Shown here piece by piece: positions 1 through 22,121 of a stretch of 22,121 bases of DNA. The notes beneath the pieces are model-generated. The model saw only the letters and a list, made by a program, of their open reading frames with translations, made no database searches and had not been told where the DNA came from. Every line of letters starts with the position of its first letter. The first letter of the stretch is position 1. The position numbers were made by a program, and so were the translations under genes. The DNA lies in IMG/VR virus record IMGVR_UViG_3300037488_002211, positions 1-22,121 of that record. The stretch is one strand, 5' to 3'. Origin of the DNA: a virus.

Positions 1-43
1 AATGAATACATTTGGATTTGCATTACATACAGTAGGAGCATAA
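1..43 (+). CDS. 3' end of an upstream gene (partial, product unknown)
   Basis: The reading frame starting at base 2 is open from the window edge to TAA at 41-43, one base before the next ATG. The visible residues are NTFGFALHTVGA after a possible internal Met. This tight spacing matches the other structural genes. The frame starting at base 1 is also open until base 57, so the choice of frame is an inference from spacing. Too little is visible to name a product. Confidence 0.4.
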   Translation, partial: MNTFGFALHTVGA

Positions 44-44
44 T

Positions 45-626
45 ATGTTTGAATTAACTGACGAAGCATTACAAAGATTGGGAACGGTCTTCATTAACTT
101 TTATAAACAAAAGGTACAACAGAAGATCTACCCTTATGCGCCAGGTTATAGAGGAGAGGGAACAATAAGACCAGGAAGTCCTGGTAATAAAGTTGCAACA
201 GGTCAGTTATTAAACTCATTAACAGCAACGGTTGTTAGAACACCACAAGGTTCTCAACTTGTTATTACCTACATGGACTACTTCGAAGCAGTCAATTTAG
301 GTAGAAGACCTGAAAAGAAAAAAGTTCCAATAAGTGCCTTACTTGATTGGATTAAAATAAGAGGAATAAAAGGCAGAAATAAAAGGGGAAGATTTATACC
401 AAATCTTTCATTGGCATTCGCAATACAAACCAACATATACAAGTATGGCATCGCTCCTTCTAATATTTATGACAAAGCAAGAGATTCATTTGAAGACTTA
501 TTGGAAAATCCTCCAGCAGAATTTAGAGATGAATACGAGTCATTATATGAAGCAATTGGTCGAGATGTTGAAAACTTTATGGACAAAGTTGTTACGAAAG
601 AATTTCAATCAATAATAGAATTATAA
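45..626 (+). CDS. Putative tail-completion / neck protein (HK97 gp10-like)
   Basis: This 193-residue protein probably acts at the head-tail joint or tail terminus. The pattern resembles small gp10/Z-type tail-completion proteins: an N-terminal helix, then VATGQLLNSL (about residues 50-59), a beta segment ending near YMDYFEAVNLGRRP, a basic VPISALLDWIKIRGIKG segment (about 94-110), and SLAFAIQTNIYKYGI. A helical acidic C-terminus follows. An AGGAG stretch lies upstream, but it is part of the preceding frame and is unlikely to be used for initiation. The next gene starts two bases after the stop, so the two are probably cotranscribed. The assignment rests on residue pattern and location only; it could be another small tail or neck component. 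Confidence 0.5.
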   Translation: MFELTDEALQRLGTVFINFYKQKVQQKIYPYAPGYRGEGTIRPGSPGNKVATGQLLNSLTATVVRTPQGSQLVITYMDYFEAVNLGRRPEKKKVPISALLDWIKIRGIKGRNKRGRFIPNLSLAFAIQTNIYKYGIAPSNIYDKARDSFEDLLENPPAEFRDEYESLYEAIGRDVENFMDKVVTKEFQSIIEL

Positions 627-627
627 A

Positions 628-2310
628 ATGAGTTTAGATTTAACCATATTACAGAAACCACTTGCAGTTTCAGAGTCACACTCCGATCATACATGGAATG
701 TTGCCCTTAACGATTATTCCGCATATACTGACATCAGATTGGTTGTTGATGTTTATAAGAACCCATATAGAAATGATTTGGGACCAAACAACACAAAAGG
801 AACAAGCCAAGATTCAGGAAAGTTTGGAAGATTATTAATCCCTTCCAATGAATTTGGTAATTGCATATTCAATGTTGAAACTGTTATTAGAAATTTCACA
901 ATTGCTAATCCAAGAAACATGACAATGGTCTATACAGGATCATCAAGTAATGCTTTAAATAATCCTTATTTGGTGAATGCTTATACATCATCAACAGTTT
1001 CAATAACAGGTCTAACATCACAAGCAACAATCTCTTCTGACAGACCATCGTATATTACCTTTTCTAACGGGTTTAACGGGGGTTATGATGGATTTGAGAA
1101 CATATACCACATCAATGAATATAGACTGATTTATGGGGTCCAATTCACTTCTGGTGGGACAACACAGGTAATCATTCCAACTGACTATTCAGCCTATACA
1201 TCTTACGATGAAATCAATGGTATTATTTCCCCATATTCTGCTTCAACACAACCTTATGGTATAATGATTTGGCCTGGTGTTCAGGACAATAAGAGATTTG
1301 GTTATGCTGACAACAATCCAAACTTTGATTATTACTACGATCCGTCAAACCTGTCAGGAAAATATAACTATTGGAACTATAAAATATTTGACTTTGCAAT
1401 GGATCAGGGATTCAATCCTTATAATGTTAAGGGTCAATTCATGGCAACATTTGGGGAAGAAACAATTCCAATGACAATCTCTGGTGGATCTGTATTCCAA
1501 ACTCGTTATAGAACTCACTATTATAAATGTCCAATATTACTTCCATTTATTTATGGAGACAATCCACTTTATAATAATTCATCTGTTGTTAATTCTGTTA
1601 CATTCCTACAAAAGTTAAATAACAATAACCAAATGAATTATGAGGTTTCATCTTCATCAGACATAGGTTATACAAATAATCCATTTAGTCCTTATTCATA
1701 CTTGGGACAAAGAATTGCATATGCAGTATGGAAACAAAATCCAAACGCATATACTCAATCTGATGTTGCAGTTTATTTAAGTTCAGGATCATGTGATTAC
1801 AATTATGTTTCTGGTGTTTCAGAAATCGTTCAATATAAAATGGTTGGAGAAGAATGTTTCAACGATCCAATTAGTTTCATGTTCTTAAATCGTTTTGGAG
1901 TTTGGGACACTTATACCTTCACAAAAAAGAATACAAAGAAATATACTCCCGACAAAAAAGTATATTCACAATATAAAACATTAAACACAAAGGTTTGGAA
2001 TAGACAATCATATGATTCATTGGAGACAGTGTTCTATGGTAAAGCAGATGAACTTGTTACAGTTGATTCAAATTATGTTAATCAAAATGATGCAGTTGTT
2101 ATTGAAGAGTTGTTATTGTCCCCTTATGTTTACATCATGGGCGACAACTATACTCCAATAAATAATCAAGAAATTATTCATCCGTATTTGATTCCATGTG
2201 TCGTACAAAATAAAGAAGTAAAAGTGTTTGAACAAAAGTATGAGCGTATATTCCAATATACAATTGAACTTAAACAAACTCCTTACAGAAGATTTGAATT
2301 ACCAATTTAA
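628..2310 (+). CDS. Putative tail structural protein, 560 residues
   Basis: The protein is rich in Tyr, Asn, Ser and Thr, has no obvious membrane segment or signal peptide, and looks largely beta-structured, which fits a virion protein. The N-terminus (MSLDLTILQKPLAVSESHSD) is followed by an Ig-like or beta-sandwich-like stretch and a long aromatic-rich region. A more charged C-terminal part begins near residue 420 with FLNRFGVWDTYTFTKK. I recognise the general style of tail-tip-associated proteins in Bacteroidota phages but cannot assign a family. The gene sits between the tail-completion-like gene and the large tail-tip-like gene with 1-2 base gaps, suggesting one operon and one assembly. 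A shorter overlapping frame at 1277-1474 is a shadow. Confidence 0.55.
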   Translation: MSLDLTILQKPLAVSESHSDHTWNVALNDYSAYTDIRLVVDVYKNPYRNDLGPNNTKGTSQDSGKFGRLLIPSNEFGNCIFNVETVIRNFTIANPRNMTMVYTGSSSNALNNPYLVNAYTSSTVSITGLTSQATISSDRPSYITFSNGFNGGYDGFENIYHINEYRLIYGVQFTSGGTTQVIIPTDYSAYTSYDEINGIISPYSASTQPYGIMIWPGVQDNKRFGYADNNPNFDYYYDPSNLSGKYNYWNYKIFDFAMDQGFNPYNVKGQFMATFGEETIPMTISGGSVFQTRYRTHYYKCPILLPFIYGDNPLYNNSSVVNSVTFLQKLNNNNQMNYEVSSSSDIGYTNNPFSPYSYLGQRIAYAVWKQNPNAYTQSDVAVYLSSGSCDYNYVSGVSEIVQYKMVGEECFNDPISFMFLNRFGVWDTYTFTKKNTKKYTPDKKVYSQYKTLNTKVWNRQSYDSLETVFYGKADELVTVDSNYVNQNDAVVIEELLLSPYVYIMGDNYTPINNQEIIHPYLIPCVVQNKEVKVFEQKYERIFQYTIELKQTPYRRFELPI

Positions 2311-2312
2311 TA

Positions 2313-5867: not shown

Positions 5868-7475
5868 ATGAATTGTATTGTCTACACAAATAATGATGAA
5901 TTTTCAGGTTCAAAAGAACTTTCAGGAACAACATGCGGAGGTTCTTCAGGTTTCTTTTATTTAAACTATGGTGATTCAATTTGTATGGACATAGATCAAC
6001 CAATAATTCTATGTGATTATTTTAGTATTGGAGGTATGTGCCCGACTCCAAGTGTTACTCCATCGAATACTCCAACCATAAGTGTTACTCCAAGTATAAC
6101 ACCAACAGCAGTTTTCTGTGATCAAATTGCTATTGAAAATGTTGGACCATTTTCAGGTTATTCAATTTTTACAAGAGCAACAAATGGTTATGTATTAACA
6201 GGTGGTAGTCCAACTTACAAATATGAATGTTCTTCTTATTTCGGTAATAATTATGTGGTATACACAAGTTCTACGAGTTCAAGACTTATAATATATTCTC
6301 CTGTATTTTTTGGTGGAGGTCCTTTCGACAAATTCATTCTATGGAATACTCTTAACAATACCTGTGGAACTGGTATGCCAGGTCTTTCAGTACAAGATTT
6401 TTGGAATACAGGATTTACATATAATGGGGTAATTTACCCTGAACCAGGAATCGGAGGTTCTTCTAATACTAATTTGATTTATTTAAACTGCCCGCCAGGA
6501 CCAACTTTAACAACAACTCCATCTCAAACCGCCACACCAACACAAACTCCAAGTGTAACTCCAACTTTAACTCAAACACAAACTCCGAGTTCGACTATTG
6601 GTTCAACATCAACGCAAACTCCAAGTAATACACAAACTGTCACACCAACTAATACTCAAACACAAACGAACACACCTACTCCAAGTGTAACCGCAACTTT
6701 AACTCCTACCACCACCCCAACTTTAACTGTTTGTCCTGAAACTAATAATTGTATGGAGATCACAGTAACAGGTGCAACAGAAGAATTCTTCCCATCAATA
6801 GAATATAACAACTGTTATGGAACTCTAATCAATGAGGCATTTACAACAAACGGAACAAGGTACAGATGTGTTCAATTTGTTTCTGGTGTCGCACAAATAT
6901 TCTCTTATACAGGAATGCCGGAACCAACAATCTATGGTGGAAACTGTAACTCTTTTGAATGTCCTGGTGGTGTTGTTCCATTAACACCCACCCCCACACC
7001 AACTGTAACTCAAACAATGACACCAAGCACAACGATTGGATCAACACCAAGTAATACACAAACTCAAACTGTCACTCCAACGAATACAAATACTCCAAGT
7101 ATGACCCAAACAAACACTCCAACACCAAGTGTTACATTAACAGCAACAACTGCTGGTATTGACATTACAAATGGATCATTGGACATACAAATTAGTTCTG
7201 TTTATGTGAATAGTGTTGTAACAACTGTGATCGGTGGATCATTACCAAACACAACTGGTAATGGAACTAATTTAGAAACAACACAAGTAGGAGTTTATAC
7301 TGTTGAAGTAAATTATAGTGCGGGTGTAGCAGGTCAAAAAATTACTTTAACTGACAGTGATTTATTTTCAACTTGTCAAAATACAAGTACAGGTAGTAAT
7401 ACAATGACCTTTACATCAGTAAAAGTTGCAACTTATACAAATGTAATAATTGACGCACAAGACGGAACTTGTTAA
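5868..7475 (+). CDS. Thr/Pro-rich modular tail protein, 535 residues
   Basis: This beads-on-a-string protein alternates small domains with Thr/Pro/Ser/Gln linkers at about residues 57-81, 211-288 and 372-426. The first domain (1-56) has several Cys and the motif SGTTCGG. The third domain (about 289-371) starts CPETNNCMEITV and contains NNCYGT and GGNCNSFECPGG; it resembles the Cys-rich module near the end of the preceding gene, so the two genes seem to share a domain. The last domain (about 427-535) is beta-rich and ends DAQDGTC. There is no signal peptide. It is likely an accessory tail fibre or tail-tip decoration that contacts the host surface. The family is not recognised. Confidence 0.55.
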   Translation: MNCIVYTNNDEFSGSKELSGTTCGGSSGFFYLNYGDSICMDIDQPIILCDYFSIGGMCPTPSVTPSNTPTISVTPSITPTAVFCDQIAIENVGPFSGYSIFTRATNGYVLTGGSPTYKYECSSYFGNNYVVYTSSTSSRLIIYSPVFFGGGPFDKFILWNTLNNTCGTGMPGLSVQDFWNTGFTYNGVIYPEPGIGGSSNTNLIYLNCPPGPTLTTTPSQTATPTQTPSVTPTLTQTQTPSSTIGSTSTQTPSNTQTVTPTNTQTQTNTPTPSVTATLTPTTTPTLTVCPETNNCMEITVTGATEEFFPSIEYNNCYGTLINEAFTTNGTRYRCVQFVSGVAQIFSYTGMPEPTIYGGNCNSFECPGGVVPLTPTPTPTVTQTMTPSTTIGSTPSNTQTQTVTPTNTNTPSMTQTNTPTPSVTLTATTAGIDITNGSLDIQISSVYVNSVVTTVIGGSLPNTTGNGTNLETTQVGVYTVEVNYSAGVAGQKITLTDSDLFSTCQNTSTGSNTMTFTSVKVATYTNVIIDAQDGTC

Positions 7476-7485: not shown

Positions 7486-7659
7486 ATGAAATTTATATTT
7501 GAAAATGGGGATTATGTTATAACACCATCAGATCCCAAAACACTAAACCTAAATATTGAAGAACTCAAAATGTCTTTCCCACTTATTGTGGACAATAAAC
7601 ATTTGTTTGAGTTTCTTGACCTAACAGAGCAAAATGGCAAAGAAGAAAGTAGAAGTTGA
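7486..7659 (+). CDS. Small 57-residue protein overlapping the tape measure start
   Basis: The frame opens at ATG 7486 and ends at TGA 7657-7659, encoding a protein that begins MKFIFENGDYVITPSDP and ends EQNGKEESRS. It fills the only gap between the 535-residue gene and the tape measure gene and overlaps the latter by 26 bases, so the two may be translationally coupled. A nine-codon frame at 7476 ends just after this start and may be a leader or chance. Tail assembly chaperones usually sit just before the tape measure gene; this protein is shorter than those, and no convincing slippery site was found. The function is unknown. Confidence 0.6.
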   Translation: MKFIFENGDYVITPSDPKTLNLNIEELKMSFPLIVDNKHLFEFLDLTEQNGKEESRS

Positions 7660-9925
7660 TGTTGACATTAATGTGGAACTCGAACCGAGTTTAAAAGCAT
7701 TAAGAGAACTAAAAAAACAACTTAAAGAAACCGCAGCAGGATCAGAAGATTTCAAGAGGCTGACCGCACAAATTGATGACATGGAAGACTCCTTAAAAGG
7801 AGCAAAAGCCGGTGCAACAGATTGGGTTGATTCATTGGAGAATGCTGGTGGTCCACTTGGAATGGTGGGTGCTGGTATTAACAGAATGAAGGTTGCCTTC
7901 ACATCATTTAACACAGCACTTAAAGCATCGATCATTGGTTTAATTGTGAGTGCTCTTGCTGGTCTTGTTGCTGCTTTTAGTTCCAACGAATCAGCAATGA
8001 AAAAACTTCAACCATTATTTATTGGTTTGGAGAGAATTCTTGGTGGAATATTTAGAGCGATGGAACCACTCCTTGACATCTTCATTGAGATGGTCATGGC
8101 TGTATTGCCCCCACTTACAAAAGGTATTGGTGTTTTCTATTCAGTTTTATTTGGTTTATTTACTCTCATCAAAGATGTGGGTGTGGGTGTTGGAAAAACT
8201 CTTAAAGGTATATTCACATTTGATTGGGATTCAATCACAGAAGGTGTTACACAGATCGCAGGATCAATAGGTAATGCAGTCAAAGCCGGTGATCAGGCAT
8301 ATGCAAGATTCACCGCAGGAACAAAAGAACAAACAAAGACAGAGAAAGCGAATCTTGCAGAGAGACAGAAGAACAACGATGACGCACAGAAGAAAAAAGA
8401 AGAAGCAGCAAAGAAAGCACTTGAAAAAGCAAAAGCAGATCTTGATGCAAAGATCAAATTAGAAACTGACAAGGAAAATACTTCAAGAGACAATTTGAAG
8501 AAACTTCTTGATCAGAGAATGAATCTTGAATTAAGTAATGCTGAACTTACTGAAGCACAGAAAGAAGTAATCAGACAAGACTACGCCAAGAAATTGGAAG
8601 AAGCGGTCAAAGCAGATGAGGACAAGAAAAAGAAACAAAGAGAGGCTGATCTTGATGCACAGATTCAACTTGAAATAGACAAAGAGAAAACAAGAAAGGA
8701 TGAATTAAAACTTTTATTGGATGCTCGTATGGCAGAAGAGTTGTCCAATCTTGAATTGAGTGAGGCACAGAAAGAAGTTATTAGAGCCAAGTATGCAAAA
8801 CAATTAAAGGATGCAATCAAGGCTGATGATGAAGAAGCAAAGAAACAAAGACAAGAAAAACTTCAACAACAATTAGATGAGGCACAAGGTAATTCAGAAC
8901 AACAAATTGAGATTTATACAAGTCTCCTTAAAGAGGTTAGTACTGATGAAAAATATTCATTAGAAGAAAGAGCAAATTTAAGAAAGACTTATTCCGAGGC
9001 AATCTTAAAAATAATTGACAATGAATTTGAGGCGGAGACACAATCAATTCAAAATAAATTTGGTGAATTCGCAAACTTTGACAAAGACTATTATGAGGAA
9101 CAAAAAGCAGCATTAAAAAATCAGTTAGATCAATTAAACGCATTAAGAGAAGATGGTGCGATTACAGAAGATGAGTTCAATAAGAGAAAAGCAGGAAACT
9201 TAAAAGCAAGAAAAGAACTTGACAAATTAGAAGTAAAATCTTCTCAAGAAAAAACAGCACTCATTAGTGACGCATTAGGAAACTTGTCAAACATTGTTGG
9301 TAAGGACACCGTTGCGGGTAAAGCATTCGCAATTGCCAAAGCAACAATCGACACATACCAATCAGCCGTTGCTGCCTATAAATCACTTGCAAGTATTCCT
9401 GTTATTGGTCCCGCATTGGGTGCCATCGCAGCCGCATCAGCAGTTGCCACAGGTATTGCGACAGTAAAGAAGATCGTACAAGTTCAGGTTCCTGGCGGAC
9501 CAGGTGGTGCGAGTGGATCAATTCCAACAACACCGGGAAATACAACACTTCCCCCATCTCCAATTGCTGTGAATGCAACACCACAAAGAAAAGCATCAGG
9601 AGGATTGGTGAGTGGACCAGGAACATCAACATCAGATTCAATTCCAGCATTATTAAGTGATGGTGAGTTTGTTGTTAATGCAAGATCAACACAAGTATTT
9701 AGACCATTACTTTCAGCCATCAACGCAACGGCAGGGATGCCACAATTCGCAGTAGGTGGATTGGTTAATGGAAGAATGAAAAAAGATCCTGACAACACAG
9801 AAAAAATTGCTTCAGCAGTTGAGAATGCATTCGCATCACAACCGATCAGAACTTATGTAACTGCTGCAGACATTTCAAACCAACAACAATTTGACAGAGT
9901 AATCAAATCTCGTTCTCTGATCTAA
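7634..9925 (+). CDS. Tail tape measure protein
   Basis: This 763-residue protein sets tail length and lies inside the tail tube; it may take part in DNA ejection. The N-terminus (1-80) is charged and helical. Hydrophobic stretches occur near residues 95-115 (ASIIGLIVSALAGLVAAF) and 125-182. Residues about 235-560 are lysine/glutamate-rich coiled coil including a 70-residue tandem duplication. A second hydrophobic Ala/Gly region spans about 570-615. The C-terminus has the pattern typical of tape measure proteins, ASGGLVSGPGTSTSDSIPA followed by LLSDGEFVVNARS. At 763 residues, the helical part would correspond to a tail of roughly 100 nm. That is the usual rule of thumb, not a measurement. Confidence 0.9.
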   Translation: MAKKKVEVDVDINVELEPSLKALRELKKQLKETAAGSEDFKRLTAQIDDMEDSLKGAKAGATDWVDSLENAGGPLGMVGAGINRMKVAFTSFNTALKASIIGLIVSALAGLVAAFSSNESAMKKLQPLFIGLERILGGIFRAMEPLLDIFIEMVMAVLPPLTKGIGVFYSVLFGLFTLIKDVGVGVGKTLKGIFTFDWDSITEGVTQIAGSIGNAVKAGDQAYARFTAGTKEQTKTEKANLAERQKNNDDAQKKKEEAAKKALEKAKADLDAKIKLETDKENTSRDNLKKLLDQRMNLELSNAELTEAQKEVIRQDYAKKLEEAVKADEDKKKKQREADLDAQIQLEIDKEKTRKDELKLLLDARMAEELSNLELSEAQKEVIRAKYAKQLKDAIKADDEEAKKQRQEKLQQQLDEAQGNSEQQIEIYTSLLKEVSTDEKYSLEERANLRKTYSEAILKIIDNEFEAETQSIQNKFGEFANFDKDYYEEQKAALKNQLDQLNALREDGAITEDEFNKRKAGNLKARKELDKLEVKSSQEKTALISDALGNLSNIVGKDTVAGKAFAIAKATIDTYQSAVAAYKSLASIPVIGPALGAIAAASAVATGIATVKKIVQVQVPGGPGGASGSIPTTPGNTTLPPSPIAVNATPQRKASGGLVSGPGTSTSDSIPALLSDGEFVVNARSTQVFRPLLSAINATAGMPQFAVGGLVNGRMKKDPDNTEKIASAVENAFASQPIRTYVTAADISNQQQFDRVIKSRSLI
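8435..8854 (+). repeat. Two tandem 210-bp (70-codon) repeats in the tape measure gene
   Basis: Residues 268-337 and 338-407 of the tape measure protein are tandem copies. Both begin ADLDA and share the pattern LELSNAELTEAQKEVIR versus EELSNLELSEAQKEVIR, followed by YAK and a KAD segment. The copies differ at many codons, so the duplication is not recent. Such in-frame duplications lengthen the coiled coil and hence the tail. Confidence 0.85.
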
Positions 9926-9962: not shown

Positions 9963-11582
9963 ATGACTCGCATTGTAGAACTTTTCATTGACGATGAATT
10001 TGATGAGAGTGGTATTGAAGCCATCTCTCTCGTTTCTCGTCCCGCACATGAAGAATCATGGATTGCATTTAATGCCGAAGATTCAAATGAAAAATTGGAG
10101 CCTGAATACATTTATAAGGAGGATGACTTCTGTAATCACAACCCCAAATTAGACGAATTAGGAGAACCATATTCAGACTTAATTAATGAAGGTTGGGAAG
10201 TATTCAAAGTTGAGAAAATAACTCCTGCAATGGTCAGGAAAATGTCAATGGAGAGATTCTCTGATCCTAACTCCCCATCATTTTTGGACAACGATCAATA
10301 TAGAATCAGATTTAAGTATGTTGGTATTAGAGATGACAAGAACAGAAAATTCTGTGCTGACATGCTTGCAAAGAATAGAGTATACAGACAAGAGGACATC
10401 GACAACTTAACTGACTCCGTAGCAAACGAAGAGTTCGGTTTTTACAATATATTTTTATGGAGAGGATCATTTAACTGCCGACACACATGGGTTAAGTTAT
10501 GGTACGCTCCAACAGGTAAGATTAGAAATTCAGGATCATCAACCAGAGGGGTTGAGAGAGGACCTGAATCACAACCATCATCATTACAACCTGACACAAG
10601 ACCTGACACAACAATCAATTCACCTAATCCATCTAAACAATGGAAACCAGGAATGCCAAGAACAGGTCCAAACTTATTTGCTGAAGGTGGATTGGAAGAT
10701 GCATGTTGGGAAGGTTATGAACCAATAGGAACAAAAATCCTTGATGGTAGAGAAGTTCCAAACTGTGTTCCAATTAAAATGACAGAAGATGATTTTGCTG
10801 ATGCCATTTCTGATTACCCCGAAGGTGTAAAGAACGCAGCCAAGAAGGCTGTGGATTACGCAGAAAAAAATGGTTGGGGATCATGTGGAACTCCAGTAGG
10901 AAAAACAAGAGCATCACAATTAGCAAAAGGTGAGAACATTTCTGTTGACACAATCAAGAGAATGTATTCATATTTAAGCAGACACAAATCTGATTTAACA
11001 TCTTCAAAGAGTTATGACGAAGGTTGTGGAAAATTGATGTATGATTCTTGGGGAGGTGAAGCCGGTCTTTTATGGGCAGAGAGAAAGTTAAAACAACTTG
11101 AAAAAGAGAAGATGACTTTTGCTGTGGCTAATGAAGACAAAAAAATTGTTGTGGGTGCTGCAATGGTTCCAAACAAAATGATTAGTCGTTATGATGAGTT
11201 GGGAAATTTATATTATGTATTTTTTTCAAAGCAATCAATTAGAAAACTTGCAGACAAATTTTTGAGACAAAAAAGAACTGATGAAACCAACATTGAACAT
11301 GATGGAATTAAATTAGGTTCTGACAAAGTATACATAACTGAATCATGGATTTCAGAAGATCCAATCAAAGACAAATCAAACCTATTTGGTTTTGAATTAC
11401 CAGCAGGTACATGGTTTGTTCAGATGAAGGTTGATGATCCAAAGGTTTGGAAATCAATAAAAGAAAACAACTTAACTGGTTATTCGGTTGAGGGGTTATT
11501 CGCAGAGAAATCTGTTTTCTCAAAGGAAGACAAGACCATAAACAAAATAAAAAATATACTAAAATCAATCACAGATGAATAG
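9963..11582 (+). CDS. Head-morphogenesis (Mu F-like) / XkdF-like prohead protease fusion
   Basis: This 539-residue multidomain capsid-assembly protein has an N-terminus (ELFIDDEFDESGIEAISLVS) like those of XkdF-type phage proteins. Residues about 113-176 match the pattern of the Mu F-like head-morphogenesis C-terminus: FKYVGIRDDKNRKFCADML, VYRQEDID, and a WRGSFNCRHTW end. A Pro/Ser linker follows (about 190-235), then CWEGYE...VPNCVP (248-270). Next is a segment with GTPVGKTRASQLAKGENIS and YDEGCGKLMYDSWGGEAG (about 309-367). Residues about 385-520 resemble the putative serine protease XkdF (peptidase S78-like), with SWISEDP, FELPAGTWFVQMKVDD and GYSVEGLF. His446 and Ser461 are only candidate catalytic residues. 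It lies just before the scaffold-like and capsid genes, as expected for a maturation protease, and overlaps the next gene by 8 bases. Confidence 0.7.
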   Translation: MTRIVELFIDDEFDESGIEAISLVSRPAHEESWIAFNAEDSNEKLEPEYIYKEDDFCNHNPKLDELGEPYSDLINEGWEVFKVEKITPAMVRKMSMERFSDPNSPSFLDNDQYRIRFKYVGIRDDKNRKFCADMLAKNRVYRQEDIDNLTDSVANEEFGFYNIFLWRGSFNCRHTWVKLWYAPTGKIRNSGSSTRGVERGPESQPSSLQPDTRPDTTINSPNPSKQWKPGMPRTGPNLFAEGGLEDACWEGYEPIGTKILDGREVPNCVPIKMTEDDFADAISDYPEGVKNAAKKAVDYAEKNGWGSCGTPVGKTRASQLAKGENISVDTIKRMYSYLSRHKSDLTSSKSYDEGCGKLMYDSWGGEAGLLWAERKLKQLEKEKMTFAVANEDKKIVVGAAMVPNKMISRYDELGNLYYVFFSKQSIRKLADKFLRQKRTDETNIEHDGIKLGSDKVYITESWISEDPIKDKSNLFGFELPAGTWFVQMKVDDPKVWKSIKENNLTGYSVEGLFAEKSVFSKEDKTINKIKNILKSITDE

Positions 11583-12606: not shown

Positions 12607-13578
12607 ATGAAAAAAAATCTTTCAAAAATGTCATTTACAACAAGTGGCTACGATTTAACAGGACTACAAAGTTATGTGGATCAATTGAATTCTGACATCA
12701 TTTCAGAAGCAGTTCTTACACCACAAACAATGAAGTATTGTAATGTGATTCCTGGTATTAAAGGAACACAAAATGTGAACTTACTTTCTGAAACTTTAGT
12801 AGTTCAGACAGGTACAACTTGCGGTTGGGAAAGTTCAGGAGACACTACATTCACAGTTGCTCCATTAACAGTTTCTCAACTTAAAGTTAATCAAAGTCTT
12901 TGTTTGCAAGAATTAAATACCGTGTGGCTTGGTCAATATTTGGGACAGGGATCCTATAATGAGACTGTTCCTTTCGAACAAGCGATTGTAGATTTACAAA
13001 CAAAACAAATTAAGCGTTATAACGAAGATTTGTTATGGAATGCATCAAGTGCTTCTACAAGTTTTTCTGGTTTCAAAGAATTACTTGCAAACACTGCTGG
13101 TGTTGTTGCATTAACTGGTCAAACAGCATTATGTTCTGTTACAGGTTCTTCAACAGTTCAACAAGCATACACTGTTCTTGCACAAGTTGACAACATCATC
13201 AATGCTTTCGACAGAAACATTTATGGTAGAGAAGATCTTGTAATCTTCATGTCTCAAGCACAATTCAAATGTTATTTAGTTGCAATCAGAAATGTAAACA
13301 ACTTCCATTTCAGTGAACCTACATTAGGTCAAGTTTATGAAGTATTCCATCCTCAAACAAACATCAAAGTTGTTGGAGTTCCTGGTCTTAACGGATCAAA
13401 CTTAATCGCAGGATCAGCACAACAATACTTTTTAGTAGGAACAGACTTAATGTCTGACGAAGATTCTTACAGAATGTGGTGGTCTCAAGACTTCCAAGAA
13501 GTTAGAATGGCGGTAAATTGGAAATTAGGAACTGCAATTGCGTTCCCACAATTTTTCGTTACTAACGGATTGTCATAA
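12607..13578 (+). CDS. Probable major capsid protein
   Basis: This 323-residue protein follows the protease fusion and the scaffold-like gene. It starts MKKNLSKMSFTTSGYDLTGL and continues with a helical segment (YVDQLNSDIISEAVL) and then beta-rich regions. VPFEQAIVDLQTKQIKRYNEDLLWN (about 119-143) resembles the long spine-helix region of HK97-type capsids, and a late IYGREDLVIFMSQAQFKCY segment resembles the peripheral/axial part. I infer an HK97 fold from these features, the length and the position, not from a search. It is flanked upstream by a very A-rich spacer (12583-12606) and downstream by a perfect 9-bp hairpin, consistent with a highly expressed message. Confidence 0.7.
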   Translation: MKKNLSKMSFTTSGYDLTGLQSYVDQLNSDIISEAVLTPQTMKYCNVIPGIKGTQNVNLLSETLVVQTGTTCGWESSGDTTFTVAPLTVSQLKVNQSLCLQELNTVWLGQYLGQGSYNETVPFEQAIVDLQTKQIKRYNEDLLWNASSASTSFSGFKELLANTAGVVALTGQTALCSVTGSSTVQQAYTVLAQVDNIINAFDRNIYGREDLVIFMSQAQFKCYLVAIRNVNNFHFSEPTLGQVYEVFHPQTNIKVVGVPGLNGSNLIAGSAQQYFLVGTDLMSDEDSYRMWWSQDFQEVRMAVNWKLGTAIAFPQFFVTNGLS

Positions 13579-14193: not shown

Positions 14194-14223
14194 ATCACAA
14201 GGGGATTAATTTTCCCTTGTGAT
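14194..14223 (+). terminator. 12-bp hairpin after the tail tube gene
   Basis: ATCACAAGGGGA (14194-14205) pairs with TTCCCTTGTGAT (14212-14223) with one G-T pair and a 6-base loop. A TATTTAT tract follows in place of a clean T run. It resembles a partial terminator or stabilising structure. A GTG start at 14219 for the next gene would lie inside the stem, which argues for the ATG at 14237. Confidence 0.65.
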
Positions 14224-14236
14224 TATTTATACGCAT

Positions 14237-17029
14237 ATGATCTTACTTAAAACAAATCAATTAAATAAAATAATAACAACCGTTTCACAGAACGCAGAAC
14301 TTGCGACTCCTGAATGGTTATTTTCTTTCACTCACAAAATGAGTAAGGAAAGAGTTACTTTTATTCTACCTAACATTTCAACACATCAAGTTCGTTATGA
14401 TGAATTTGAATTTATTGAAGGTCAAGGCGTTAATGAGATTGCGTTCCCATATGAGGGACAATATATTTATGGGATCTATGAACAATATTCAGGATCAACA
14501 AACTTAAATCCTGCTCTTGCTTATAACAAAGTTGAGTCAGGTCTTGCGTTATTAATCGCAATGTCAGCCAATACAACAAATGATTATTACATTGAGTATA
14601 TTTCTCCTGATGAGGACAATTCAAATATAATTTTTGCTCCTGGTGAATTAAACCCACCATCCCCAACTCCGAGTGTTACAGCATCAAATACTCCCACACC
14701 CACAGTAACTCCAACGAATACTGCCACTCCAACTGTCACTCCATCAATGACACAAACCGTTTCTGTGTCAACTACACCAACGAAAACTCCAACCCAAACT
14801 GCCACTCCGACAAAAACATCTACAAGTACTCCAACTAATACACCAAGTAATACTGCTACAAACACGCCAACACAAACACAGACGAGTACACCAAGTCAAA
14901 CACCAAGTAATACTGCAACAAACACTCCAACACAAACACAGACAAAAACTCCAACACCAAGTATTACTGCGAGTAAAACTGCCACACCAACACCAAGTAT
15001 TACCGCAAGTCAGACACAAACACAAACTCCAAGCCAAACTGTCACGCCTACACCAAGTATTACTGCGAGTCAGACAGTCACGCCTACTCCGAGTATTACT
15101 GCAAGTCAAACTGCCACACCAACGCCGAGTATTACTGCAAGTCAAACTGCCACACCAACGCCGAGTATTACTGCAAGTCAAACTGCCACACCAACGCCGA
15201 GTATTACAGCAACTCAAACACAAACTTCAAGTCAGACGATGACTCCAAGTATTACAGCAAGTCAAACGATGACTCAAACACAGACTCCGAGTATTACACC
15301 AACCTCAACTCCTGCATACCCTTCATTAAGATTTTGGATTGATTCATCTGATCTAACAACAATCACCAAAGATGTAAACAATAAAGTTTCTCGTTGGGAT
15401 GACAAAGGACCTTATGGTTATGATCTAATTCAATCTAATAGTGCAAATCAACCACTTTATACAGCATCAACATTGAACCCACAAGTAACATCAATTAATT
15501 GTGTTTCTTTCAATGGTCTTACTACAACTGGTGGAACCTTTATGTCTGTTTCAGGAATTTCATTTGCTGACACAGGGTATACTTATTTCTTTGTTGCTGG
15601 TATTTCAAGAGATGAGGCAGAAGGATTTGCATTTTCATTGGATGGTCCAACAAGTTCTCCAACCATAGAATCAAATTATTATTTATATTCTCAAAATCAG
15701 GGTGGTGGAGGAGACAGAGTTTATGTTGGTGCAGACAATACATTCTGGTATGCTAATTTGGAAGCAAATTCTGCTGACACAATTTCAAGAGCATCAGGAT
15801 TATTCTTGGGAGTTGTTACAGGTATAACAAATTCTACATCACAAGCACAATTGAATGGTATTACTTTGACTCTAAATCAAACAGGAACAACAACAGACAC
15901 AATAACATCAATTGCTGTTGGTGGTCAAACAGGATCGACAACACAATTCTTGGCACTTTCTGAAGTGATGGAAATAATTGTGTTTGACACAGTTCTTTCT
16001 GCAGCACAAATTTCAGTAATTCAATCAGGATTGGAATCAAAATGGTTATATTCTCAATGGTTGGTGACTCCAACCCCCACTCCAAGTGTTACTCCAACAC
16101 AGTCGATGACTCCAACTCCGAGTATTACTGCAAGTCAGACGATCACTCCAACTCCGAGTGTAACTCCAACCCAAACTGCTACTCCAACGCCTTCGGTAAC
16201 TCAAACTGGTACTCCTGGTCCATCTACAACCCCAACCCAAACTAATACTCCGAGCCCAACACCATTCTCACCATTCACTCTTAATCCAATGATTTGGATT
16301 GATTTTAACGACACATCAACTCTTTCTTTAAGAAGTGGTCAGTATGTTCAATCGGTGTCAAATAAAGGAAACTGGACATCATTTACAGGGTTCTCACAAA
16401 CTACTGCTGCAGATCAACCAAGTTGGTCAGCATCAACAATGGGAACATCAAAATCTGCGGTTACAATTTCAAATGATTGGTTGGTTTCAAATACATTTAT
16501 AACAGGAACATCTTGGAATACATTTGTGGTAATGAAGTTCTCATCTTCAACACCATCATTCTCGGTTGTTTCAGCAGCAGGAACTTCTCCAAATGTGGGA
16601 AGTGGTGGTGGACCTGGATTCTGGTCTCCAATTGTTCCTCAACCAGCATCACCAAACTTCCGTTATACTAATGCATTGGATCAGAATGGATCAATAACTC
16701 AACATAGAGTTAGATTTAATGGTTATTCAGGTTATAACACAACACAAGTATGTCAATCTTATATTTCCAATACAGCAACAACTGTGGTTGATTACATGAC
16801 TTTCAATAATTCAGGAACAACTGAAACAATATTAAAATCAAACTTAACTCAAACAGGGATGCCAGGAACATATACTGGTGGTACAACATTCTCGATCATC
16901 AATTCAATTGGATCTACTGATGTTGTTATAGGTGAAATTGGTGAGATCATTATGTATAATAAAGAATTAACATCATCAGAACAATCTACATTAATAAACT
17001 ATTTGAAAACAAAATGGGGAATAACATAG
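14237..17029 (+). CDS. Tail fibre/adhesin with two lectin-like domains on Thr/Pro/Ser linkers
   Basis: From the ATG at 14237 the protein has 930 residues; an in-frame GTG at 14219 lies inside a hairpin and is less likely. Residues 1-135 form a domain starting [20 protein letters not shown], a type I associate with short Bacteroidota phage tail proteins, probably the virion attachment part. Residues about 141-359 are a repetitive Thr/Pro/Ser linker including a 12-residue repeat. Residues about 360-608 form a concanavalin A/LamG-like domain ([19 protein letters not shown], then EIIVFD...LESKW). Linker 2 spans about 610-676. A second, related lectin-like domain (677-930) has [10 protein letters not shown] and ends [11 protein letters not shown]...YLKTKWGIT. 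The two domains look like duplicates. They probably bind host surface glycans. No hydrolase motif was seen. Confidence 0.7.
15038..15217 (+). repeat. 36-bp tandem repeat array in the fibre gene
   Basis: Five in-frame 36-bp units encode variants of [12 protein letters not shown]. Copies at 15110-15145 and 15146-15181 appear identical, and 15182-15217 differs by two bases. The two copies upstream (15038-15073 and 15074-15109) are more diverged. Degenerate versions extend on both sides through about 14659-15315. The near-identity of the central copies suggests recent slippage or unequal recombination, so linker length may vary between relatives. Confidence 0.9.
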
Positions 17030-17030
17030 C

Positions 17031-17327: not shown

Positions 17328-18533
17328 ATGAAGGAAGAAATAAAATATGATGGTGATGACCTTATGAAGGTTTTTAACTTTGGTGCAGTTGCCAGAGTTC
17401 CAATCATTGAGGAAAATTTAATGGTCAATACAAGAACGCCATGGGTCTATTATGGACCTTCCAACTACGCACCCCAAGAAATTACTCGTTTATACAACAC
17501 AAGTCCCACATTAAGGGCGTGTATAACTTCAAAATGGTTTGGAGTAAGAGGAGAAGGAATTAAACTTGCATCAGGTGAAGATGATCGTTTAATGATGGTC
17601 AATTCTTTGGGTGACACTTTATATGATGTATATGCAAAAGCCGCATTAGATTTTATTTTATTTGGAGGATTTGCTCTAAATGTAGTTTGGAGAAGAGATC
17701 GTGAACAAGGATTTGAAATTTATTACATAGACTTTACTAAATTAAGAGCAGGAAAAACTGACATGAATGACAGGATCCAAGACTTCTACTATTGTGCAGA
17801 TTGGGCATTCCCTAAAAAGTTTGTTCCAAGAAGAATTCCAGCATTCAACTCAAACACAGAAGAGCCAAGTCAGATTTTTTATTACTCAACCCACTCAATT
17901 GGGAATAATTACTACCCAACCCCGACATGGTGGGCATCTGCTCTTGCTTCAAGCATACAAGTCGAGGTATTTAACTGGCATTACAACAACATCATCAATG
18001 GTTTAAGTCCATCTTTATTTGTTTCTTTAATGGGAGTTCCCGCACCGGAACAAAGAGAAGAGATTTATAAGAATATGATGAGCAAATATGGGGGATCAAA
18101 TCAAGCCGGAAAATTATTTTTAACATTCTCTGATTCAAGAGACATGGCTCCTGAAATAACACCAATCGCATCCAACTCATCTGACAAGATGTGGATGGAA
18201 TTAAACGACATGGTACAACAAGCGATCCTTACATCACACCAAATTAGTTCACCTGAATTATTGGGTATTATTACTCCTGGTGGTTTGGGAACTCCTGATC
18301 ACATCGAAGCACAGGACCATTTTTTCAATCTTGTAATCAAACCTTTGCAGCGTGAGATCCTTAATGTATTCGACAAGATCCTATTAATAAGAGATCGTCA
18401 ACCAGCAGAAATAATTGTTGATCAATTCCATATGGTTACAATTGCTGATCAAGCCCCAATTAAAGTGGAAGACATCAATGAAACAAAAGATGTTGCAGTT
18501 GATGAAATAAAAGATGAAACAATCCAACAATAA
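17328..18533 (+). CDS. Portal protein
   Basis: This 401-residue protein is expected to form the ring at the capsid vertex through which DNA is packaged and ejected. Recognisable portal features are an N-terminal segment ITRLYNTSPTLRACITSKWF, a helical AKAALDFILFGGFALNVVWR, IDFTKLRAG, a central NNYYPTPTWWASALASSI (about 193-210), SPSLFVSLMGVPAPE and a late ISSPELLGIITPGGLGTPDH (about 307-326) with HIEAQDHFFNLVIKPLQREI. The C-terminus is acidic. The stop overlaps the next start as TAATG. It is shorter than many portals but fits the compact HK97-type group. The gene's position at the end of the structural cluster is unusual. Confidence 0.85.
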   Translation: MKEEIKYDGDDLMKVFNFGAVARVPIIEENLMVNTRTPWVYYGPSNYAPQEITRLYNTSPTLRACITSKWFGVRGEGIKLASGEDDRLMMVNSLGDTLYDVYAKAALDFILFGGFALNVVWRRDREQGFEIYYIDFTKLRAGKTDMNDRIQDFYYCADWAFPKKFVPRRIPAFNSNTEEPSQIFYYSTHSIGNNYYPTPTWWASALASSIQVEVFNWHYNNIINGLSPSLFVSLMGVPAPEQREEIYKNMMSKYGGSNQAGKLFLTFSDSRDMAPEITPIASNSSDKMWMELNDMVQQAILTSHQISSPELLGIITPGGLGTPDHIEAQDHFFNLVIKPLQREILNVFDKILLIRDRQPAEIIVDQFHMVTIADQAPIKVEDINETKDVAVDEIKDETIQQ

Positions 18534-19141: not shown

Positions 19142-19396
19142 ATGAACGAAACTTTATTATTATTTGTTTCAAATGCCTTAACAGGTATTGCCGCTTGGTT
19201 TGTTGGTAAAAAAAGACAACAAGCAGAGACGGACAATCAAGTATTACGCAATCTTGAACTTGCGATTGGATTATACAACAATATAATCGAGGACTTAAAG
19301 CAAGAGATCCATGAATTGAATATTAAAATTCAAGATTTGGAGAAAAAGGTTGATGAATTACATCAAGAGAATAAGAGATTAAAATCAAGTTTATAA
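19142..19396 (+). CDS. Small membrane-anchored coiled-coil protein
   Basis: This 84-residue protein has an N-terminal hydrophobic segment (LLLFVSNALTGIAAWFVG, about residues 5-22), a basic stop (KKRQQ) and then a long heptad-like coiled coil to the end (LKQEIHELNIKIQDLEKKV). The likely topology is an N-out membrane anchor with a cytoplasmic coil, given the basic residues after the helix. Candidates are a lysis-related protein such as a small holin or spanin-like protein, or a membrane-bound accessory. No lysozyme or amidase was seen next to it. The ATG follows the upstream stop directly, and its own stop overlaps the next start as TAATG. Confidence 0.7.
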   Translation: MNETLLLFVSNALTGIAAWFVGKKRQQAETDNQVLRNLELAIGLYNNIIEDLKQEIHELNIKIQDLEKKVDELHQENKRLKSSL

Positions 19397-19776: not shown

Positions 19777-19822
19777 TTTTGTTGTCCTTGAGTTGTAATT
19801 CACATCAATTATATTTATAATC

Positions 19823-19879
19823 GTTAGTGAGTTGTTGTAATCCATTCAAACTTGTCATTATTCTTTTTCCCTCACTAAC
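19823..19879 (+). repeat. Long-loop inverted repeat at the end of the structural block
   Basis: GTTAGTGAG (19823-19831) is the exact reverse complement of CTCACTAAC (19871-19879), with 39 bases between. The arms lie between the last structural gene and the terminator. It could form a structured 3' UTR, a small RNA or a protein-binding site. The rest of the 19777-19992 gap holds the terminator and a candidate promoter listed below. Confidence 0.6.
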
Positions 19880-19894
19880 TTCCTATTTATACAA

Positions 19895-19929
19895 GGACCG
19901 ATTGTTTACCCACTTTCGGTCTTTTTTTT
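19895..19929 (+). terminator. Intrinsic terminator of the structural operon
   Basis: GACCGA (19896-19901) pairs with TCGGTC (19916-19921), extended by a G-T pair, around a 14-base loop, and is followed by an eight-T run (19922-19929). It follows the last structural gene and precedes the small-gene block, so it likely separates two expression units. Confidence 0.85.
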
Positions 19930-19939
19930 GTCTGATCTA

Positions 19940-19970
19940 TTGACCTTTACCCTCCTATACCCTATTATTG
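19940..19970 (+). promoter_or_regulatory. Candidate Bacteroidota-type promoter for the small-gene block
   Basis: TTG at 19940-19942 is followed after 20 bp by TATTATTG (19963-19970), one base from the TANNTTTG consensus. It lies just after the terminator and 22 bases before the ATG at 19993. The mismatch makes it weaker than the promoters further right. Confidence 0.45.
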
Positions 19971-19992
19971 TAATAATAAAAAAACAATAATT

Positions 19993-20145
19993 ATGGGACA
20001 AAGTAAAAGAATGTTTGAAGAGATGGAATTAATGATGATTCCTGATGATCTTGATTACCAATATGAACAATGGCTTGCAGAGAAATCTGCTTACGAAGAA
20101 ATGTTGGCTGATTCACAAGGATTTATTAACTTCGCACAACAATAA
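19993..20145 (+). CDS. Small acidic protein, 50 residues
   Basis: ATG 19993 opens a 50-codon frame ending TAA 20143-20145. The protein starts MGQSKRMFEEMELMMIPDDL and ends SQGFINFAQQ; it is mostly helical and acidic with many Met. It is the first gene after the terminator and candidate promoter, has A-rich sequence before its start and uses the same codons as neighbours. The function is unknown; short acidic proteins of this kind in phage early regions often bind host proteins, which is only a general inference. Confidence 0.65.
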   Translation: MGQSKRMFEEMELMMIPDDLDYQYEQWLAEKSAYEEMLADSQGFINFAQQ

Positions 20146-20169
20146 ATTATAATTTTAATACAAGAAAAA

Positions 20170-20385
20170 ATGAGAGTAAAAGAAGAACAAATCGTATGGC
20201 AAAATCAATCGCACCTTTCAAGACAATGGTTCGTTGATCATCAAATTAGACCTGATCTATTGGACATCTGCTTGGTCACAGATGTATTGGTTCAATTCTG
20301 TCAATTGGGTCCAACCAAAGAGGTTAAAGAAAGAATGGAAACCATGAAACAATATTTAAGTAAAAAGTATGGAAAAAAAATATGA
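20170..20385 (+). CDS. Small hypothetical protein, 71 residues
   Basis: The protein starts MRVKEEQIVWQNQSHLSRQW and ends with a basic tail (KKYGKKI). It looks helical, with no membrane segment or Cys-pair motif. It follows the 50-residue gene after 24 bases with no promoter motif between, so the two are probably cotranscribed. Its 3' end overlaps the next gene by 17 bases in another frame. The function is unknown. Confidence 0.65.
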   Translation: MRVKEEQIVWQNQSHLSRQWFVDHQIRPDLLDICLVTDVLVQFCQLGPTKEVKERMETMKQYLSKKYGKKI

Positions 20386-20644
20386 GGTAGTTCTGACCTT
20401 TATAATGCCTAATCAACAAGAGGCATTTGTAATATGGGACATTGAATTATATGCAATTGCAAGAAAGGGTGAAAAATTGGAAGAGTTTTTAATGGATGGA
20501 TCCAAGAATGGATTTGGTGTGTCCCCGATCACAGTGTATGTTGGAATATTTTTAAATCCAAAACTTATGGAGGTGGAAACACCTTTTGGTATGGAGAATA
20601 TATTAGTAGGAAAACATATATTAGATTTGGACATATTTGAATAG
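20369..20644 (+). CDS. Small hypothetical protein, 91 residues
   Basis: The ATG at 20369 lies inside the preceding gene. The protein is mixed alpha/beta: MEKKYEVVLTFIMPNQQEAF, a central GSKNGFGVSPITVYVGIFLN and an acidic end (LDLDIFE). A strong hairpin with a T run follows shortly after the stop, so this is the last gene of a three-gene unit starting near 19993. No family was recognised. Confidence 0.65.
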   Translation: MEKKYEVVLTFIMPNQQEAFVIWDIELYAIARKGEKLEEFLMDGSKNGFGVSPITVYVGIFLNPKLMEVETPFGMENILVGKHILDLDIFE

Positions 20645-20662
20645 GGTTTATATGTTTTAATT

Positions 20663-20699
20663 AATGATCATCAAAATAAATTTGGTGGTCATTTTTTTT
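20663..20699 (+). terminator. Intrinsic terminator after the three-gene unit
   Basis: AATGATCATC (20663-20672) pairs with GGTGGTCATT (20684-20693), including two G-T pairs, with an 11-base loop and a T run to 20699. The right arm abuts the upstream element of the next promoter, so the end of one unit and the start of the next are merged. Confidence 0.8.
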
Positions 20700-20712
20700 G
20701 CCCGTACCTTTG
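20681..20712 (+). promoter_or_regulatory. Bacteroidota-type promoter P1
   Basis: TTTG (20681-20684), 20 bp, then TACCTTTG (20705-20712) is an exact match to the consensus. A leader GTAAAAATTAAAATATAAAA follows, and the ATG is at 20734. The expected transcript start is about 7 bases after the motif, leaving a very short leader. Confidence 0.85.
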
Positions 20713-20733
20713 TAAAAATTAAAATATAAAACT

Positions 20734-21057
20734 ATGGAAAATTTAGTAATCACATTCAAGTACAAATCAGGAGATCTTACACAACTTGTGTCTACATCAG
20801 AATTTCAAAAATTAACGGACAGGTTTGGTCTTGTGGAATTGCAGAACATTTTATTAGATGATGAAAAAAATTGTTTGAGGGTGGGAGTTGATCCCGATCA
20901 AGTATTGGTTGATGTTTATGAGGATGCGAGATTAGTTCCTGTTCCATCAGAATTTGGTACTTTAAGTCATTTTTTAGGAGAACCTTATGAGTATAAAGTT
21001 CAAGGAAAAAAACTAAAAAATCTTTTGTCAGTATTAAATAATTCAGTAACTTTGTAA
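20734..21057 (+). CDS. Small hypothetical protein, 107 residues
   Basis: The largest gene of the small-gene block. It starts MENLVITFKYKSGDLTQLVS and contains VGVDPDQVLVDVYEDARLVP; it appears mixed alpha/beta and acidic and ends in NNSVTL. Promoter P1 lies directly upstream. Its last codons and stop (GTA ACT TTG TAA) are part of promoter P2 for the next gene. The family is unknown; an early host-interaction role is conceivable but not shown by sequence. Confidence 0.7.
   Translation: MENLVITFKYKSGDLTQLVSTSEFQKLTDRFGLVELQNILLDDEKNCLRVGVDPDQVLVDVYEDARLVPVPSEFGTLSHFLGEPYEYKVQGKKLKNLLSVLNNSVTL
21024..21054 (+). promoter_or_regulatory. Bacteroidota-type promoter P2, inside the 3' end of a gene
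   Basis: TTTG (21024-21027), 19 bp, then TAACTTTG (21047-21054) matches the consensus exactly and lies within the end of the 107-residue gene. The stop codon TAA begins at the next base. A leader TAAAAATTAAAA similar to the others leads to the ATG at 21071. Confidence 0.85.
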
Positions 21058-21070
21058 AAATTAAAACATT

Positions 21071-21346
21071 ATGACAACTCTAAACATCAACATCGTTACA
21101 GGTCTTCAAATGGAAGGACCAAATGTTTCTTTAACTTTTTGTATTGATTCAAATTCGAATCTATGTGCAAGATTTTGGCAACCATTTACTGAAAAAGTTT
21201 ATACAGAAATACCTGTGAAACATTGGACAGGTGCTACTGCGGCTATATGTACTTTCTTACATTTGAACGGTGAATCAAAAGAACAAGTTAAATCCAAAGT
21301 TCAAAAAATTATTCATGGTATTCAAAACAATTTAGTAACTTCGTAA
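21071..21346 (+). CDS. Small hypothetical protein, 91 residues
   Basis: The protein starts MTTLNINIVTGLQMEGPNVS, has two Cys and a central FWQPFTEKVYTEIPVKHW, and ends with a helical KEQVKSKVQKIIHGI. The final codons GTA ACT TCG TAA mirror the end of the preceding gene and form the -7-like motif of promoter P3. The leader and end arrangement suggest it was built from the same expression cassette. No family was recognised. Confidence 0.7.
   Translation: MTTLNINIVTGLQMEGPNVSLTFCIDSNSNLCARFWQPFTEKVYTEIPVKHWTGATAAICTFLHLNGESKEQVKSKVQKIIHGIQNNLVTS
21336..21343 (+). promoter_or_regulatory. Degenerate promoter P3 (-7 element only)
   Basis: TAACTTCG (21336-21343) differs by one base from TANNTTTG, and no TTTG or TTG is found at the usual distance upstream. 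The downstream leader, GTAAAAAATAAAACT then ATG, is nearly the same as at P1 and P4. It could be a weak promoter or a decayed copy, with read-through from P2 supplying the message. Confidence 0.5.
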
Positions 21347-21357
21347 AAAATAAAACT

Positions 21358-21627
21358 ATGGAAACAATTTTAAAAATGAATTACGGACAACATATGTTGT
21401 TCTCTTACCTTTGTATTTCAATTGCCGCTATGAAAGAAGAATCTGTATTAACCTATGAAGTATTAGATGAGTTAATCAAACAAGTCATAGAATTGACTGA
21501 TGTAGAACATTATGATTCGATCGAAGAATGTCCCGATCATATGATCATGGTTAATCCACAAGACTCTTATGGAATATTCTGTGACTTTTGGGACGAGAAC
21601 GAAGTTTATTTTGTAGAATACCTTTAA
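21358..21627 (+). CDS. Small acidic hypothetical protein, 89 residues
   Basis: The protein starts METILKMNYGQHMLFSYLCI, has a helical central part (YEVLDELIKQVIELTDVEHY) and a C-terminus rich in acidic and aromatic residues (IFCDFWDENEVYFVEYL). The whole is strongly acidic. Its final part carries the -33-like TTTG of promoter P4. The function is unknown. Confidence 0.7.
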   Translation: METILKMNYGQHMLFSYLCISIAAMKEESVLTYEVLDELIKQVIELTDVEHYDSIEECPDHMIMVNPQDSYGIFCDFWDENEVYFVEYL

Positions 21628-21640
21628 TAACTTACCTTTG
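21610..21640 (+). promoter_or_regulatory. Bacteroidota-type promoter P4 with a longer leader
   Basis: TTTG (21610-21613), 19 bp, then TACCTTTG (21633-21640) matches the consensus exactly. The leader begins like the others (TAAAAATTAAAA, ATAAAACT) but then has 30 extra bases, 21662-21691, before the ATG at 21692. The extra segment starts CGGGGACAGG and ends AACAACT, repeating the ACT that normally precedes the ATG. Confidence 0.85.
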
Positions 21641-21691
21641 TAAAAATTAAAAAATAAAACTCGGGGACAGGATTACTGAACATCAACAACT

Positions 21692-21988
21692 ATGGAAAAA
21701 TTTGTTTTTACCTTTGATGAATTAGAAAGATTACAACAATTAATTTTAGAGTGTAATGAATATTGTGGAACATACGACACGGCACCATCCTACAATGATT
21801 TCCTTGACAAAATTATTGGTGATGACTGGCAAGAATTGATGGGTGAGTGGGATGATTTGTATAGTATGGAAGGAAGTATGGATTTTTATTTACAAGTTTT
21901 GAAGGGTCATTATTCCAAGTCATTAAAGGATTGGGAATTACAAGGAAAAGAATTATTACAACAAATTTTGGTAGAATCAGAAGATTAA
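21692..21988 (+). CDS. Small acidic hypothetical protein, 98 residues
   Basis: The protein starts MEKFVFTFDELERLQQLILE and is acidic and aromatic, with a region GDDWQELMGEWDDLYSMEGS and a helical end (ELLQQILVESED). The N-terminal style (ME plus a short strand) is like that of the 107-residue gene product. It is driven by P4 with the longest leader of the set and is followed by a strong terminator. No family was recognised. Confidence 0.7.
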   Translation: MEKFVFTFDELERLQQLILECNEYCGTYDTAPSYNDFLDKIIGDDWQELMGEWDDLYSMEGSMDFYLQVLKGHYSKSLKDWELQGKELLQQILVESED

Positions 21989-22029
21989 TTTAACCTTTTA
22001 ATTAGTAGTGTGTTTTAATAGTGAAGAAG

Positions 22030-22058
22030 AACCTCATCAGAAATGATGGGGTTTTTTT
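22030..22058 (+). terminator. Strong intrinsic terminator closing the small-gene block
   Basis: AACCTCATCA (22030-22039) pairs with TGATGGGGTT (22044-22053) with one G-T pair and a GAAA tetraloop, followed by more T. In the reverse direction it also has a stem and a pyrimidine-rich downstream tract, so it may work both ways between convergent genes. Confidence 0.9.
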
Positions 22059-22060
22059 AT

Positions 22061-22121
22061 TCAAAATGTTTTGAAATATTGTCCTTTGTTCTTTCCTTGT
22101 ATGGTAATACCACCCCAAATC
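22061..22121 (-). CDS. Possible 3' end of a convergent gene (partial)
   Basis: On the minus strand a frame is open from the window edge to TGA at 22063-22061. It ends WGGITIQGKNKGQYFKTF, with codon choice like that of the other genes, and stops just before the terminator, which is a natural place for a convergent gene to end. Only about 19 codons are visible. Another minus frame is also open, and a plus-strand ATG at 22101 exists, so this is a weak call. Confidence 0.3.
   Translation of the reverse strand, partial: IWGGITIQGKNKGQYFKTF

Follow-up and report, generated by a model that had tools for sequence, protein, structure and literature searches.

A phage clade lacking GATA and a probable family of phage-encoded, restriction-like endonucleases working without a methylase

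The window analysed in this study is a 22,121-base stretch of phage DNA (IMG/VR record IMGVR_UViG_3300037488_002211, positions 1 to 22,121) in which both GATA and its complement TATC are missing. The gap extends over the whole window (1..22121, both strands) and takes in coding and intergenic DNA. The last 127 bases of the window (21995..22121) were identical to the start of another contig, L288 (IMGVR_UViG_3300037488_002095); an overlap of this length is typical within one assembly, and by it the two are neighbouring contigs of one phage. L288 carries a gene for a nuclease-like protein (GATA type) at 1095-1724 on the plus strand, 967 bp beyond the window end, and a terminase gene lies further on. 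Because the nuclease gene lies ca. 1 kb past the window end, it escaped the sequence-only reading, the earlier annotation of the window that had noticed the missing words. The joined sequence of the window and L288 (30,775 bp) contained no GATA/TATC against 256 expected, and another record matching the stretch at the window end, G031 (= L251/L289), carried the same nuclease gene.

An exact count gave 0 GATA and 0 TATC in the window, as had been read by eye, while the Markov expectations calculated from trinucleotides were 84.3 and 100.8, respectively; the earlier chance estimate of about 130 each was thus somewhat high. A shuffling check of the kind that had been proposed bore the observation out: synonymous-codon shuffles of 23 open reading frames (n = 300) gave means of 93 GATA and 90 TATC and never fell below 76 and 70, respectively. 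Since the shuffles always remained far above zero, neither protein sequence nor codon use explains the gap, and this candidate cause was ruled out. Avoidance at the messenger RNA level was also rejected because both words are gone from the sense strand, and the proposal of a double-stranded DNA target therefore holds. GATC was over-represented in the window (124 vs 78 expected). The other 4-mers at zero were all palindromes with much smaller effects (observed/expected: AGCT, 0/27; ACGT, 0/19; CTAG, 0/14; CGCG, 0/7), and no second non-palindromic 4-mer was comparable to GATA/TATC. The DdeI word CTNAG was also absent (CTCAG/CTGAG, 0/21; CTAAG/CTTAG, 0/15). Host restriction is possibly the cause of the absence of CTNAG and of these four palindromes.

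Relatives of the window were collected by scanning IMG/VR with the putative major capsid protein (12607..13578, plus strand; an assignment of the sequence-only reading that matches phrog_11320, of unknown function), which retrieved 80 relatives, and three further genes were used afterwards. In the six closest capsid relatives (86-89% identity), GATA occurred 0 to 7 times vs 34 to 167 expected, while in the other 74 GATA was normal and most lacked GATC instead. The four-gene survey was bimodal: GATA was at zero or near zero in 33 loci (ca. 20 contigs) and at least 0.83 of expectation in the 225 other loci. In the pooled clade records, GATA was the lowest 4-mer (13 observed vs 832 expected). With related phages checked, as had been proposed, the gap is confined to one clade and is a trait of that clade, not of the whole family.

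Gene content was then compared among 36 records. The nuclease-like gene was present in all the clade records that reach the early region (G001, G004, G027, G030, and G031), where it is the first gene of the early row or close to it, and in none of the outgroups, even by sensitive hidden Markov models (HMMs). Seven contigs with the GATA-type gene had 12 GATA vs 765 expected and abundant GATC. Two contigs, L286 and L288, were retrieved via the nuclease gene alone, and their lack of GATA/TATC (0/58 and 0/72, observed/expected) is therefore an independent confirmation.

GATA-type proteins are 190 to 230 amino acids long and PD-(D/E)XK-like. Their sequence shows a glutamate in the first helix, D41, and E54-x-K56 (the last two elements invariant), followed by the block IEFES.GK.SGI..T.ADY. 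The AlphaFold2 model (predicted local distance difference test score, 78.6) follows the PD-(D/E)XK core (alpha-beta-beta-beta-alpha-beta) in its order of secondary structures, and its best structural matches (top Z scores, 9.6 to 8) were I-Ssp6803I (Z 9.6), NhoI/Eco15I (ca. 9), Hjc, RecU, and HinP1I. By this predicted core fold, the protein would belong to the PD-(D/E)XK superfamily. Across the family alignment, E15, E54, K56, and E83 were invariant or nearly so, and E-x-K was invariant in 134 sequences; D45, E58, and K60 were invariant in the intermediate GATC-type proteins described below. The protein matched the PHROGs profile phrog_13596 ('unknown function'; E = 9.3e-12 and 5.5e-10). No Pfam or NCBIfam family scored above the cut-off, PADLOC gave marginal matches only (E ca. 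0.01), a PDB sequence search found no relative, and a plasmid search found no homologues. A scan of bacterial genomes gave five homologue matches, all in contigs of metagenome-assembled genomes. Searches of open-licence PMC papers found no account of these genes, nor of any phage enzyme that lacks a methylase and has its site purged. The family thus appears to be phage-borne and undescribed, with GATC as its putative usual target.

This target is suggested by the homologues, which occur in many unrelated phages, among them viruses of the ocean; tblastn traced them to as many as 37 records of cultured or reference phages, most of which are SAR11 podophages. The first six homologue genomes each had no GATC (65 to 156 expected) and normal GATA. 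When loci from IMG/VR scans with the family alignment (80 and 79 added) and a genome scan (5 added) were included, 171 of the 175 GATC-type loci had no GATC at all, and the total was 12 sites vs 5,170 expected; HTVC019P is counted twice among these loci (GenBank and IMG/VR records), and the count for HMO-2011 covers 50 of its 55 kb. Gene-bearing contigs of 119, 99.6, 65, and 64.6 kb had no GATC vs 280, 238, 188, and 166 expected, respectively. The few sites were in L384 (2/38), L385 (2/31), L365 (2/13, both within the final 32 bases of its stretch), and the variant L405 discussed below. In pooled gene-bearing loci, no 4-mer other than GATC came close to zero (GATC, 2/1757 and 6/2442). The possibility that the real target in pelagiphages is GANTC was rejected, since depletion of GANTC is not linked to the nuclease gene. 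Other words were also missing in some of these phages: GCGC, GGCC, CCGG, and CCAGG were at zero in HTVC019P and HTVC109P (L280 and L376), and CCAGG in HMO-2011 (L284), which may be marks of other phage nucleases.

Matched controls were available among the pelagiphages. Three close relatives of gene-bearing phages, HTVC200P, HTVC119P, and S28-C10, harbour a different gene between the polymerase and exonuclease genes (by eye it resembles endonuclease VII/HNH; the S28-C10 annotation is 'endonuclease'), and their GATC counts were 60/96, 100/105, and 128/124 (observed/expected), respectively. Scanning IMG/VR with the HTVC200P gene retrieved 28 loci (22 close and 6 distant relatives of that gene) without the nuclease, in which GATC was 725/809 and in none at zero. 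On the same host strain, HTCC7211, GATC was 0/68 in HTVC109P, which has the nuclease, vs 100/105 in HTVC119P, which does not. Since phages of the same host differ in GATC as the gene does, and the matched controls agree, the cause goes with the phage gene and not with the host. In these GATC-type comparisons, avoidance did not follow the restriction repertoire of the host.

The two types differed at the alignment columns of L285 residues 77-79, which read T-[GN]-N in the GATC types (T in 127/128, N in 128/128) and [YW]-x-T in the GATA types (6/6); the residues that follow were L-F in the former vs mostly I-A in the latter. The only member with SGN for TGN (L405:2-451) is in a leaky contig (GATC, 6/32), a hint from sequence that the motif may matter for specificity. 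In the tree, the GATA types formed one side of a branch (Shimodaira-Hasegawa-like approximate likelihood ratio test, 96), so one switch suffices. From the breadth of the GATC type, we infer the direction GATC to GATA.

A survey of methylases, systematic for PF02086 and PF01555, found PF02086 in 0 of the 34 gene-bearing records and no PF01555 in 33 of them, the exception being G027; G030, outside the 34, also carries PF01555. C75C1 and C72C1 carry Dcm-like cytosine methylases. In phage C75C1 the methylase gene adjoins the nuclease gene with an overlap of 4 bases (L282:16131-17923), in the manner of a restriction-modification operon, yet the genome is still free of GATC. Thus, the cognate methylase of a Type II restriction-modification system appears to be missing.

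These observations support the following explanation, to which we assign a probability of roughly 0.88: the phage encodes a restriction-like endonuclease without a methylase, its genome is immune by holding no site, and in the window's clade the enzyme has switched from GATC to GATA. The product of an early phage gene would be a small endonuclease, PD-(D/E)XK-like, with GATA in double-stranded DNA as its cutting site. By selecting against this site, the enzyme would have purged the phage genome of GATA and TATC, making a cognate methylase unneeded, and the DNA of the host and of co-infecting phages, in which the words are common (ca. 1 per 120 bases at this composition), would be cut. The specificity would have switched once in the window's clade, leaving GATA purged and GATC common. 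The asymmetric 4-base target would be unusual for PD-(D/E)XK enzymes; it would be compatible with a monomeric enzyme nicking either strand where that strand carries the site. It is also very likely, and graded just below the explanation itself, that such virus-encoded restriction enzymes are widespread and work without modification, that self is told from non-self by a purged 4-base word (in up to 119 kb), and that this word can be switched, from palindrome to asymmetric, by changes including the three-residue motif. The sequence-only reading had listed a phage nuclease sparing its own genome among its candidates, and the co-occurrence of gene and word and the controls back it; a binding site that occurs only once elsewhere, also listed, is a misfit with the family-wide rule.

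Several points weigh against this explanation. The gene is outside the window and is tied to it by the contig overlap of 127 identical bases. In clade members L001, L003, L120, L169, L182, L186, L250, and L251, 20 distinct GATA sites persist, so the purge is incomplete in places, and L405 retains 6 of 32 GATC. The GATA specificity has a single origin and is phylogenetically one event, the weight coming from the replication in the GATC type. Many relatives of the window are free of GATC without the nuclease gene, and word loss can thus have other causes. The short GATC-type proteins have E-x-K without the canonical aspartate before it, and the GATC-type model matches known folds more weakly (best Z, 7.1). 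Finally, we infer cleavage from word absence only, and the exact cut and the purpose are putative. Regarding the surviving sites, the base 5' of GATA was T in 12, C in 5, G in 3, and A in none, unlike in relatives (P ca. 6e-4), a bias that points to preferential cutting of AGATA or to tolerance of certain contexts. A Type III-like tolerance of one orientation was considered while the first leftovers were all sense TATC, and was dropped when more records gave 14 TATC and 6 GATA.

Among the alternatives, a host defence that recognises GATA, from which the phages escaped by losing the word and to which the nuclease gene is incidental, survives best but is unlikely. It is well established that phages subject to host restriction avoid words (PMC6286503), and a trait of one clade could reflect a change of host. 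The outgroups of the window fit host restriction in their own case: GATC was at 0 or 1 copy in G007, G010, G013, G014, G018, G019, G021, G026, G032-G034, G036, and G038, in which the nuclease family was not found; six-frame searches of the GATC-free outgroups with both HMMs found no GATC-type member of the nuclease family; and the outgroups that keep GATC encoded a PF01555 methylase more often. None of the gene clusters compared among the outgroups separated GATC-free from GATC-bearing records. The GATC loss in these nuclease-free relatives is probably due to host restriction, and the outgroup data suggest either restriction of GATC by the host or a phage nuclease of another kind. However, the same-family gene predicts absence of the related word in unrelated phages and hosts, and phages of one host differ in GATC as the gene does. 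No restriction-modification systems have been identified in SAR11 genomes, whose methylated word, GANTC, is depleted in about half of pelagiphages (PMC9516812), and phages show no systematic avoidance of asymmetric Type I/III sites (PMC6286503). The earlier suggestion of host restriction or defence is thus disfavoured, since avoidance tracks the phage gene rather than the host.

Less probable still is a non-cutting protein of nuclease fold that binds GATA or GATC in packaging, replication, or regulation, and whose harmful binding elsewhere purges the word. The missing aspartate of the short GATC types would fit this, as would the fact that cutting is deduced and that Holliday-junction resolvases, proteins that bind DNA structures, are among the fold matches; but E-x-K is invariant across the 134 sequences, and mere binding would seldom be expected to drive a word to zero over 119 kb (0/280). 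A mutational or editing bias, by which a phage enzyme or polymerase alters GATA/TATC in replication with no selection against cutting, is highly improbable: sense GATA of a GATC-free relative is indeed most often GACA in the window (51 positions; sometimes GATC) and the gap takes in intergenic DNA, but the replacements at relatives' TATC are varied (TACC, TTTC, CATC, and TATT), fall at all positions, and are partly synonymous choices, and the bias would need to switch word for word along with the nuclease-like gene.

The remaining genes assigned in the window, all on the plus strand, are for a portal protein (17328..18533), a marker of the closest clade members; a protein with an XkdF-like serine protease domain (PF14550) of head maturation protease type (9963..11582); a tape measure protein (7634..9925); and a Thr/Pro-repeat protein (5868..7475), probably for fibre or adhesion, whose relatives are mostly within the GATA-free clade. 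That last protein and one encoded at 14219-17029 are both large, with Thr/Pro/Ser repeats (TPTPTPS...), and probably share this role.

The predicted phage enzyme resembles Type II PD-(D/E)XK restriction endonucleases (NhoI/Eco15I, HinP1I, and PvuII) in its predicted fold, short word, and expected double-strand targeting. DpnII and MboI are restriction enzymes for GATC; we know of no restriction enzyme with an asymmetric GATA target. Unlike Type II enzymes, the present one is phage-borne, lacks an adenine methylase as partner in 33 of the 34 records, and would protect its genome by site absence. Phage nucleases that degrade host DNA include EndoII and EndoIV (DenA and DenB) of T4 and gp3 and gp6 of T7. 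The attack on host DNA would be shared with these, and in the T7-like pelagiphages the gene lies between the DNA polymerase and exonuclease genes; however, T4 spares its own DNA by base modification and the T7 enzymes have no short target word, while word absence would discriminate here. The restriction endonucleases of Chlorella viruses are also virus-encoded and site-specific, but their sites are present and guarded by cognate methylases. Phage homing endonucleases and ICP1 Odn act on rivals, their own genome having no cleavable site. Homing endonucleases are alike in this lack, and I-Ssp6803I was the top fold match (Z 9.6), but they combine long rare targets with gene mobility, while here a 4-base word is missing genome-wide. 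Short words are also depleted in phage restriction-site avoidance (PMC6286503) and in GANTC depletion (PMC9516812), but selection here appears to come from the phage's own gene.

The likeliest purpose of the enzyme, at somewhat better than even odds, is breakdown of host DNA for nucleotides. Such a role fits where the gene lies: T7-like pelagiphages have it next to the polymerase and exonuclease genes, and in the window's clade it comes first, or nearly so, among the early genes. A role in keeping out rival phages is about half as likely, and both can be true. If the explanation is correct, word absence would join DNA modification and long unique targets as a safeguard under which a virus can use a sequence-specific nuclease. 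The small enzyme family would suit the study of a specificity switch and may be a source of an enzyme for asymmetric GATA. The missing word of a genome would state the specificity of its enzyme, and target words could be read from sequence across many uncultured phages. Phages may avoid a word for reasons other than host restriction, a point that bears on the use of avoidance to deduce hosts and defences. The explanation would also account for the total absence of GATC in phages of SAR11, hosts with no identified restriction-modification systems.
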